In this document: positions 13,683-15,852 of the stretch, in pieces | How positions within the stretch are numbered: the stretch's first letter is position 1 | Layout: every line of letters starts with the position of its first letter | Assembly (NCBI GenBank): GCA_905236615.1 | Contig: CAJORC010000093.1 | Coordinates: 1 to 17,880, forward strand | Direction of reading: 5' to 3' | From: an uncultured Lachnospiraceae bacterium | Lineage (GTDB): Bacteria > Bacillota > Clostridia > Lachnospirales > Lachnospiraceae | Length of the DNA stretch: 17,880 nt | Translations under genes and position numbers: made by a program | The notes under the pieces: model-generated | What the model was told of the DNA's origin: nothing | The model's input: the letters and a program-made list of their open reading frames with translations, nothing else | Databases searched by the model: none

Positions 13683-14525
13683 TCACCGTAAATCTTTCTT
13701 TGCAATATTATCCATGTCATCAAAGGTCTGGTTTTCGCCGCCCATTGCCCAGATAAAGGTGTAATTTTTCGTGCCGGCGCCGGAATGGATGCTCCATGAA
13801 GGTGAGATCACAGCCTCTTCGTTGTGCATAACAATGTGGCGGGTTTCATTTCCCTGACCCATCATGTGGAAGACAACATCATCTTCGCCCAGATCAAAAT
13901 ATGTGTAGATCTCCATTCTGCGTTCGTGGGTGTGGGCAGGCATTGTGTTCCAGATGCTTCCCGGCTCAAGGACTGTCATTCCCATTGAGAGCTGGCAGGT
14001 CTTTAATACATCGGGATGAATGAACTGGTTGATTGTTCTCTTGTTGGCTTCCTCGGCGGCACCGCAGGGACGCTTGTTGGCATCGGCTATTTTGATGAGC
14101 TTTGTCTCATAGCTTGTATGTGCCGGAGCGGATACTGCGAAAAATTTAGCCGGAGCGGAAGAGGATACGGAAGAGAAGTGTACGCTCTTTGCACCTCTTG
14201 TAATGTAGAGACAGTCACCGTGTCCCAAAGAATAATCCGTGCCGTCAACTTCGATAGCGCCTGCCTCTCCGATGTTGAAAATACCGATCTCACGGCGCTC
14301 AAGGAAAAATTCCGTTCCGAAATTGTGCCATACGTCAATGCCGTCATCGATAGAAAGGGCTTTGCTGACAGGCTTGATGCCGAGTGTTACCATTCTGTCA
14401 ACGTGGCTGTAAACTGCTGTAACCTTATCATCGATATAAAGATTATCGATAAGGAATTCTTTTCTGATCTCGTCTGTGTTATATCTCTTAAAATCTTCCG
14501 GATTGCAAGAGTATCTTATATCCAT
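13683..14525 (-). CDS. kduI: 5-keto-4-deoxyuronate isomerase (KduI)
   Basis: Converts 5-keto-4-deoxyuronate, formed from the unsaturated uronate released by pectin lyase products, to 2,5-diketo-3-deoxygluconate. A 280-residue cupin, the usual length. The zinc ligands are visible: His198 and His200 in MPAHTHERRMEIYTYFDL, Glu205, and His247 in SIHSGAGTKNYTFIWAMGG. The opening MDIRYSCNPEDFKRYNTDEI and RREIGIFNIGEAGAIEVDG are also characteristic. AGGAGG stands upstream of the ATG, so translation starts efficiently after the 307-bp repeat-bearing gap that separates it from the kinase gene before it. Confidence 0.96.
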   Translation of the reverse strand: MDIRYSCNPEDFKRYNTDEIRKEFLIDNLYIDDKVTAVYSHVDRMVTLGIKPVSKALSIDDGIDVWHNFGTEFFLERREIGIFNIGEAGAIEVDGTDYSLGHGDCLYITRGAKSVHFSSVSSSAPAKFFAVSAPAHTSYETKLIKIADANKRPCGAAEEANKRTINQFIHPDVLKTCQLSMGMTVLEPGSIWNTMPAHTHERRMEIYTYFDLGEDDVVFHMMGQGNETRHIVMHNEEAVISPSWSIHSGAGTKNYTFIWAMGGENQTFDDMDNIAKKDLR

Positions 14526-14560
14526 TTTTATCTTCCTCCTGTATGTTTAATTTATTAGTA

Positions 14561-14606
14561 AAATCAGCGGCGCTCTAACGGGCTTGATTCATCAAATTTT
14601 TTCACC
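14561..14606 (-). repeat. Array unit A1 (apparently chimeric)
   Basis: On the minus strand its 5' arm is A-type (matches A2) and its 3' arm is B-type (GCGCCGCTGA). The two arms no longer pair well: ATC faces GCT, and the outer stem is lost. It ends about 35 bp before kduI. Confidence 0.7.
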
Positions 14607-14671
14607 CCCGATCACACTAAATTCAGCGGCGCCCTATGGGCTTGCTTCATTAAGTGTGCCTGTGGGGAAAA
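14599..14671 (-). repeat. Array unit B1 (73-bp direct repeat, copy 1)
   Basis: Same hairpin as B2 with a three-base loop (ATA); core hairpin 14613-14658. The near-identity to B2 over 73 bp points to recent duplication or gene conversion. Confidence 0.9.
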
Positions 14672-14715
14672 TTGTAAATTCATTCTGCGCTTTGCTTGAA
14701 TTCATTAACAATTTT
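14668..14715 (-). repeat. Array unit C
   Basis: Outer stem AAAATTGT/ACAATTTT (14668-14675 with 14708-14715), U.U, AAT/ATT, tandem G.A, ATTC/GAAT, AA/GCA, GC-AAA-GC. It is the most diverged unit, but keeps every non-helical element. Confidence 0.8.
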
Positions 14716-14785
14716 CACCCCCGATCACACTAAATTCAGCGGCGCCCTGATGGGCTTGCTTCATTAAGTGTGCCTGTGGGGAAAA
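14712..14785 (-). repeat. Array unit B2 (74-bp direct repeat, copy 2)
   Basis: Identical to 14599-14671 apart from one inserted base in the loop. The core hairpin is 14726-14772: outer stem CACACT/AGTGTG, U.U, AAT/ATT, tandem G.A, AGC/GCT, AA/GCC, GCCC-ATCA-GGGC. Flanked by CCCC and GGGGG tracts. Confidence 0.9.
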
Positions 14786-14833
14786 AATATAGATTCATCT
14801 GCGCCCTAACGGGCTTGATTCATCAAATTTTTT
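14782..14833 (-). repeat. Array unit A2
   Basis: Minus-strand hairpin: AAAAAATT, U.U, GAT/ATC, tandem G.A, ATC/GAT, AA/GCA, GCCC-GTTA-GGGC. Its 37-bp segment 14801-14837 matches 14570-14606 in unit A1 at 36 of 37 positions. The 5' end overlaps the stop codon of the upstream kinase gene. Confidence 0.8.
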
Positions 14834-15852
14834 CACCGATTCATCTCTCGTTTTGGGCCATCTGAGTTGTGTTCTTTTATGATGCTTTCGAGTTCTCGTT
14901 TGTCGGTGGAGATCATATCTCCGGGAACCGTGCATTTGATCGCTGCGGCAGCGTTGCCGTACTGGAGCGCGGTAAGTGTATCGGAGTGTTTTATCAGTCC
15001 GCCTAAAACTCCAGAACAGTATGCGTCACCGGAACCTACGCGATCCACGATATCGATGTCCAAATAAGGTTTTTCAGTGAAAAACTTATCGGCTGCGGCA
15101 TCGTAGGCTATCGAAGTAAAGTCATGTGTTTTGGGACTCTTTACTTTACGCTGGGTGGTGAAAACAAGGCTGACTCCGTAGTCGCTGCTGTAACTCTTCA
15201 TGATGTCTTCAAGTTCGCCGGTACGTCCCATCATGTGATAATTTGTCTCTTCCGAAACAAAGAAAATATCAATGAGAGGGAGGATTTCTGTGACAGCTGC
15301 TCTGGCTTCCTCTACAGACCAAAGGTTGGCGCGGAAGTTGCAGTCAAAAGAGATGAGAGCACCGTGCTCCTTGAATTTCCTGATAAGGGCTTTGGTGACA
15401 GAATTCAAATTTTTGTTCAGGGCAAGGGAAATGCCGCAGGTGTGAAAAATTTCTGCTGTATCAAAGACTTCTTCGGGAATATCATCAAGAGAGATCTTCG
15501 AAAAAGAAGAAGCGTTTCTGTCGTAAACTACCGTAGGTTTTTTCGGTGATGCGCCGAATTCGTAATAGTAAATTCCAAGGCGTGCATCGTCGCTTTCATC
15601 CGTAAGGACATATTCATCAAAAACACCTTTTTCACGGATCTTGCCTCTTACATAACTGCCGTTGAAATTGTCGGGGATGCTTGTGATGAAAGCTGTCTTT
15701 GCTCCGAGAATGGATGCACCGGCGGCGACGTTCAGTTCAGAACCGCCGGCACATTTATTAAAAACGTCGCTTTCAGCAACACGGCTCGCACTCGGAGAGG
15801 AGAGCCTCATCATAACCTCTCCGAAGGTAACAAGGTTATATTTTTTTTCCAT
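14833..15852 (-). CDS. 2-keto-3-deoxygluconate kinase, PfkB family (first copy in operon)
   Basis: A 339-residue PfkB sugar kinase: LVTFGEVMMRLSSPSASRVA, CAGGSELNVAAGASILGAK, ISFDCNFRANLWSVEEARAA, and the C-terminal signature DRVGSGDAYCSGVLGGL with the catalytic Asp at 276. The ending AAIKCTVPGDMI is of the KDG-kinase type. It has no long insertions, unlike the copy downstream, and the two are clearly different genes rather than a recent duplication. Starts 24 bp after the GH28 stop with AGGAG. Its stop codon lies in the first bases of the hairpin array, and the last few residues (MNR) are coded by array-like sequence. It could act on KDG or on a related keto-deoxy sugar acid; I cannot tell which. 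Confidence 0.85.
   Translation of the reverse strand: MEKKYNLVTFGEVMMRLSSPSASRVAESDVFNKCAGGSELNVAAGASILGAKTAFITSIPDNFNGSYVRGKIREKGVFDEYVLTDESDDARLGIYYYEFGASPKKPTVVYDRNASSFSKISLDDIPEEVFDTAEIFHTCGISLALNKNLNSVTKALIRKFKEHGALISFDCNFRANLWSVEEARAAVTEILPLIDIFFVSEETNYHMMGRTGELEDIMKSYSSDYGVSLVFTTQRKVKSPKTHDFTSIAYDAAADKFFTEKPYLDIDIVDRVGSGDAYCSGVLGGLIKHSDTLTALQYGNAAAAIKCTVPGDMISTDKRELESIIKEHNSDGPKREMNR

Follow-up and report, generated by a model that had tools for sequence, protein, structure and literature searches.

Two genes of a pectin operon in an uncultured Lachnospiraceae bacterium, kdgK and kduI, are separated by a gap of 307 nt that is occupied by hairpins. The question it raises is whether these hairpins belong to the operon as structured RNA or came to it as a mobile repeat. 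Both genes lie on the minus strand of the window, by which we mean the whole stretch of 17,880 nt that was analysed. Genes for GH28, GH88, a short-chain dehydrogenase, a second kinase and a KDPG-aldolase (Pfam) complete the operon around the array. The initial annotation had placed five units between a KDG kinase gene and kduI, at a spacing of about 57 bp. This is borne out: the units span 14554-14831, on the gene strand and in a single orientation, with starts 56-59 nt apart. Their order, A-B1, M-B2, C, corresponds to a dimer of about 113 nt in two and a half copies:

14836-15852 (14833-15852 with the stop codon), minus strand: kdgK, the upstream gene, a pfkB-family kinase (Pfam).
14833-14835, minus strand: stop codon TGA of kdgK, with G and A both paired in the foot of unit A when that unit is folded singly.
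14785-14831 (whole fold 14779-14837), minus strand: core of unit A, class 2 position, dimer 1.
14726-14772 (14718-14781 with its CCCC/GGGG foot), minus strand: core of unit B1, class 1 position, dimer 1.
14670-14713, minus strand: core of unit M, class 2 position, dimer 2, with outer stem AAAATTGT/ACAATTTT and inner helix ATTC/GAAT.
14613-14658, minus strand: core of unit B2, class 1 position, dimer 2, near-identical to B1.
14554-14600, minus strand: unit C, a decayed hybrid whose 5' half resembles A and whose 3' half resembles B, matched by the covariance model without a stable fold.
13683-14525, minus strand: kduI, the downstream gene (Pfam).

The array starts at the kdgK stop codon and leaves intact the AGGAGG before kduI. 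Foot segments GGGG and CCCC are common to adjacent units, and more than one pairing is possible.

Folded singly, units A, B1, M and B2 adopt as their minimum-energy structure the architecture of the family: an outer stem, a U.U mismatch, 3 bp, tandem G.A pairs, 3-5 bp, usually an RA/GMA loop, and a short stem (z -3.6 to -4.2, only 0 or 1 of 200 shuffles being equally stable). Unit C is degenerate: with a z of -0.13 and 77 of 200 shuffles equally stable, it does not yield this architecture. The earlier claim of a common architecture thus holds for four units and fails for the fifth. Folding of the minus strand, proposed as a check, gives a stable structure over the whole 311 nt (z -5.7), though the plus strand is stable as well (z -4.7; 0 of 100 shuffles as stable on either strand). 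This global fold joins the units to one another, not each unit to itself. The compensatory helix changes already described between the units are present in the sequence, but B1 and B2, near-identical by duplication, are not independent witnesses of covariation, so that three independent units carry the argument inside the window.

Covariation was assessed on 153 distinct units, picked via two short sequence anchors and compared with 1000 permutations. With most of the loci searched having been fetched by models, 510 of 612 cells are paired in helix 2, between the anchors, whereas no permutation exceeds 329. The outer helix reaches 431 paired cells against at most 341, and the 3-bp helix, on each side of which the anchors fix a purine and a pyrimidine, 429 against at most 374. 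Model-fitted alignments agree but are biased to structure, their units being model-found or filtered on pairing (one consists of 47 units filtered on helix 2 and two outer pairs). Helix 2 occurs as GTGC/GCAC, GATC/GATC, ATTC/GAAT, GCGC/GCGC, GAAC/GTTC and others, while the U.U mismatch, both G.A pairs and the RA/GMA loop vary little; Y-GA-R is present in the 47 units of alignment A9, partly through selection.

The non-Watson-Crick pairs in the inner helices are asymmetric. In the 3-bp helix and helix 2, G.U outnumbers A.C by 39 to 3 (165 of 187 units kept); in the same inner helices of loci fetched by ribosomal protein S8, not by a model, the counts are 16 and 0 (55 of 63 units kept). This excess indicates that one particular strand folds, whether in single-stranded DNA or in RNA. 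At the two outermost pairs the trend is opposite, with A.C 9 and G.U 2.

Stable hairpins in an intergenic gap might be intrinsic terminators or attenuators acting between kdgK and kduI. The region 14400-14950 contains 0 terminator-like sites, a weak result by itself since shuffles average 0.7, and the units conserve non-helical bases for which a terminator has no need. We dropped the intrinsic terminator as a candidate, and termination or attenuation in this gap appears very improbable.

The initial annotation knew of no family to which the units belong, and the array indeed has no Rfam match at gathering score, its three sub-threshold matches having E-values of 0.17 to 6.6. In Rfam 15, nothing matches the hairpin at gathering in 20 further loci, or at E 0.05 in 18 loci. 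A description of the family was not found among the titles and abstracts listed by searches of the open-licence PMC literature, a scope outside which most subscription literature falls, so that absence from print is not implied.

A covariance model built from four units, together with blastn, recovered further copies in the bacterium's own genome (a 76% complete assembly) and in 7 of 48 genomes of the genus at E 0.1; a second model matched 12 of 39 genus genomes at the same threshold. These and the following counts come from sampled genomes, with strict filters in the larger scans, and the E-values of models made here are rough. Across the order, the second model matched 38 of 392 genomes at E 0.01; the window's family accounts for 37 of these. 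One matching genome has at its locus a 400-nt stretch identical to Hominisplanchenecus faecis, which NCBI places in the Lachnospiraceae; the family of the 37 genomes is therefore taken as Lachnospiraceae. At E 0.1, a broader model built from 47 units, R3, gave 2-21 matches in each of 23 family genomes out of 24 chosen; 20 of the 24 had been chosen as already positive, and the sole negative, G305, had matched in the order-wide scan. Four of the genomes scanned with R3 had been empty in the strictly filtered order scan and gave 3 to 5 matches each. Sampling across the phylum gave matches in 9 of 398 genomes at E 0.001; five of these genomes belong to other classes, where they fall into two families. 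In one of these families, f128, 4 of 10 genomes have 11-27 copies and 6 of 10 have none. The covariance search suggested at the outset thus found the hairpin again in the bacterium's own genome, elsewhere in Lachnospiraceae and, outside the window's class, in two families. Phage records gave no blastn match.

The relative G033 has 42 matches to the second model, R2; 32 matches there, carrying one of two scores, are a 33-nt short form of the hairpin, of which six were fetched. At the fetched G033 loci (L042, L049, L053 and L057-L059), the 33-nt form sits in a dispersed element that is about 240 bp long and has inverted ends (GTTACTGTTCACA...), and some copies lie within inverted-repeat elements in G794 too. 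At other loci (L019, L021 and L022 of G033, and L044 of G031), long microsatellites with a 5-bp unit, (TGCTC)n or (TGTGC)n, follow the two-hairpin copies and differ in length.

The kdgK-kduI gap itself is short in G033 and G064 (22 nt) and in G070 (18 nt), with neither a hairpin nor any model match, in genomes whose kdgK and kduI are 90-92% and 93-96% identical to those of the window. The array is an insertion, three close relatives having the short gap instead. In G070 a hairpin copy lies before kduD instead of in the kdgK-kduI gap. Between kduI and kduD, G033 has a different repeat of about 93 nt, twice in tandem and ending in a ribosome-binding site (L171:2343-2566), where the gap of G064 is only 37 nt (L170).

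Patchy occurrence, empty sites, dispersed copies and copies inside inverted-repeat elements favour a REP/MITE-like reading. The array is probably, if far from certainly, a local expansion of a dispersed REP/MITE-like family of mobile hairpins that are placed with polarity at gene 3' ends. The earlier proposal of a selected structure, either a structured RNA or a REP/MITE-like hairpin, is therefore supported: related units covary and copies exist elsewhere. No other copies, no covariation, or a match to a known family had been named as results that would speak against it; none of the three was obtained. Strong covariation alone is no proof of a housekeeping RNA; here it accompanies mobility.

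The polarity is seen in a count over 101 clusters of the fetched loci, with mechanically called ORFs of at least 80 codons; 20 duplicates, and 36 loci that had been fetched on other grounds, were set aside. Of the 101 clusters, 31 start no more than 12 nt from a co-directional stop codon, against 1 in the mirror arrangement; 70 are not at a called stop codon. The 31, which do not include unit A of the window, lie after rpsH (14), pgk (5) and other genes (12), the first two counts being raised by shared ancestry; L086 and L137, both within this stop-adjacent count, are one locus. The position after rpsH and after pgk recurs in several genera. In 80 named rpsH loci, 60 of 68 model matches (E 1) are on the rpsH strand, and inverted copies are found among the matches in the rpsH-rplF gap itself (L102, L111, L140, L151). 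Among the carriers of copies in that gap is the culturable Lacrimispora xylanisolvens (L117).

Directly behind the rpsH stop codon, the model matches in 15 of the 80 loci. The stop is TAG or TGA in 14 of these 15, against 15 of the 65 others (Fisher p 6e-7, ancestry uncorrected). Inspected by eye, 14 of the 15 loci have a lowest helix that begins with a base of the stop codon, as GGCC/GGCC, GACC/GGUC, GCCC/GGGC and similar pairs. The sole TAA locus, L110, has a U where its TAG relative L102 has a C; L137 does not fit the pattern. For the window's clade, 6 loci were checked for a TGA in the foot that ends a long ORF, and this was confirmed in 3 (the window, L031 and L035).

The rpsH-rplF gap also contains a separate recurrent structure, CUGAAAACAGA - variable stem - UCCGAAAAUUUAAGU, just before the ribosome-binding site of rplF (L137 and others of L089-L168). 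It occurs with or without the hairpin element, and the L086 gap has no Rfam gathering match; possibly, this structure is a ribosomal-protein leader.

A stop codon built into a hairpin foot suggests another explanation, a cis-acting RNA at translation termination. The hairpin would fold on the mRNA once the terminating ribosome leaves and would control how stable the upstream message is, how the ribosome is released or whether it re-initiates; its structure would be kept for that function, with little spread. Strand-specific folding, polarity to stop codons, the compensatory changes of the paired stop base, the preference for TAG and TGA over TAA, and the identical position after rpsH and pgk in several genera all agree with such a role. 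The patchiness of the rpsH copies does not, nor do inverted copies in the same gaps, copies inside inverted-repeat elements and the absence of the kdgK-kduI array in relatives.

The second lineage, f128, bears on the same point. Its 53 loci, assembled from 80 matches and earlier fetches with neighbours merged and contig-edge copies mostly omitted, comprise 14 at a co-directional stop codon and 39 not at a called stop, and 3 of the 53 show the mirror arrangement (two of these at 19-20 nt). By their flanks, the 14 stop loci represent about 8 genes, and four are groEL-like. At the groEL-like gene and others the foot takes in UAA, UAG or UGA, as UAAGU/ACUUA, UUAGU/ACUAA and UUAAU/AUUAA; in several f128 units the first GA is followed by a T. 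A T-run of terminator-like sequence precedes the hairpin in 16 of 35 loci examined, and the mirror A-run in 0; the 35 are drawn from the 53, include six stop loci and have some near-duplicate flanks. At 10 of the 16 T-run loci, the 55 nt before the hairpin fold at -14 kcal/mol or below, a figure without shuffle control. Some other f128 copies appear, by eye, within inverted repeats of TATGGTAT type. The copies behind T-runs speak against a purely transcript-level role, because a terminated transcript would not carry them. Taken with the patchy distribution, they leave the termination RNA a rather unlikely explanation.

If the hairpin is mobile, what might move it? REP/BIME elements with RAYT transposases are found mostly in Gammaproteobacteria. 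Passages of PMC2817692 and PMC3733652 describe REPs with a GT(A/G)G head and RAYTs between two inverted REPs. Ordinary REP/BIME elements moved by such enzymes would account for short imperfect intergenic palindromes that often lie close to a stop codon and whose internal loop resembles the AA/GC loop of E. coli REPs. Of 48 genus genomes, 24 have a Y1 transposase match; of 20 genomes with the hairpin, 15 do. The remaining five, and the window's own 76% complete assembly, have no Y1 match. The hairpin is beside 1 of 13 RAYT-like loci, L194, with two short copies on one side. Two inverted flanking copies occur at 0 of the 13, and 29 further Y1 loci gave one short palindrome only. Mobilisation by RAYTs is accordingly unsupported, RAYT-like genes being mostly without the hairpin and five hairpin genomes without a Y1 match. 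With a foot of GTGA instead of the GT(A/G)G head in 6 of 6 aligned dimers of the window's clade, 2-21 copies per genome instead of more than 100 and window units all in one orientation, we consider ordinary, RAYT-moved REP/BIME elements an improbable identity for the family.

For a mobile hairpin of REP/MITE type, we propose the following course. The family would spread non-autonomously: a putative enzyme would recognise the folded hairpin, either in RNA or in single-stranded DNA, and place it at the 3' ends of genes. Here, the kdgK stop codon may have been the entry point of one copy, which then grew into the array by tandem duplication of a dimer. Passages of PMC12306157 report ribosome stalling by E. 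coli REPs that lie within 15 nt of a stop codon. In the kdgK-kduI transcript, the hairpins could have side effects of the kind reported for E. coli REPs close to stop codons, protecting the upstream message at its 3' end and weakening the translational coupling of kduI.

Several observations go against the mobile reading. The positions after rpsH and after pgk that are common to genera look like long-kept sites, the outermost pairs have more A.C than G.U, most clusters, and most f128 loci, are away from called stops, and a candidate mobilising enzyme was not found among the RAYT-like and Y1 genes examined. Strand-specific folding and stop-codon anchoring would also suit an RNA role. Since the stop-codon foot covaries and some sites are common to genera, RNA effects may matter where a copy is retained.

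More tentatively, and with some doubt on our part, the family could be a new class of strand-specific structured mobile element that docks on gene 3' ends and builds its hairpin foot from the host's own stop codon or from the edge of a terminator T-run. The gene would keep its stop and, at stop codons, the element would be read as RNA at each round of termination. The tandem G.A / U.U core would then be the recognition mark of a putative mobilising or RNA-binding partner.

What emerges is a repeat family with a defined structural signature, found across many genera of Lachnospiraceae as well as in two families from other classes, without an Rfam 15 match as searched, and with copies at stop codons in core operons, after rpsH, pgk, rplK and a groEL-like gene. 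It makes testable the existence of REP-like elements without RAYTs, the aiming of a mobile element at gene ends with fixed polarity, and the effect of a stop-containing hairpin on termination and mRNA decay.

How does the hairpin compare with known systems? GA-cis RNA (RF02987) lies directly downstream of it in L066 (1571-1630) and L198 (1399-1492), both of G427; it neither overlaps the hairpin nor matches the window. Resemblances to kink-turn, box C/D and hammerhead motifs were weighed and dropped. Like a bacterial SECIS, which is a hairpin directly at a UGA codon, the element sits directly at a UGA; unlike SECIS, it also takes UAA and UAG, at ordinary gene ends such as those of rpsH and the groEL-like gene, and for this reason SECIS was dropped.

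As in MITEs, copies are dispersed, have no ORF and face empty sites in relatives. Terminal inverted repeats lie around some copies (G033, G794), with no long one evident around the window array. Unlike in MITEs, placement at gene ends is polar.

The differences from REP/BIME elements lie in the GTGA foot, in copy number (2-21 with R3, 42 in G033 with R2, against more than 100), in the tandem G.A / U.U core, in the stop codon inside the foot, and in the lack of a RAYT gene between two inverted copies. BIME units alternate in orientation, while the five of the window point one way, though inverted copies exist in some rpsH-rplF gaps. The likeness is nonetheless broad: as passages of PMC2817692, PMC3733652 and PMC12306157 describe for REP/BIME, these are short imperfect palindromes in gene gaps, multi-copy and in tandem arrays, with compensatory changes, an AA/GC-type internal loop and a position often within 15 nt of a stop codon.
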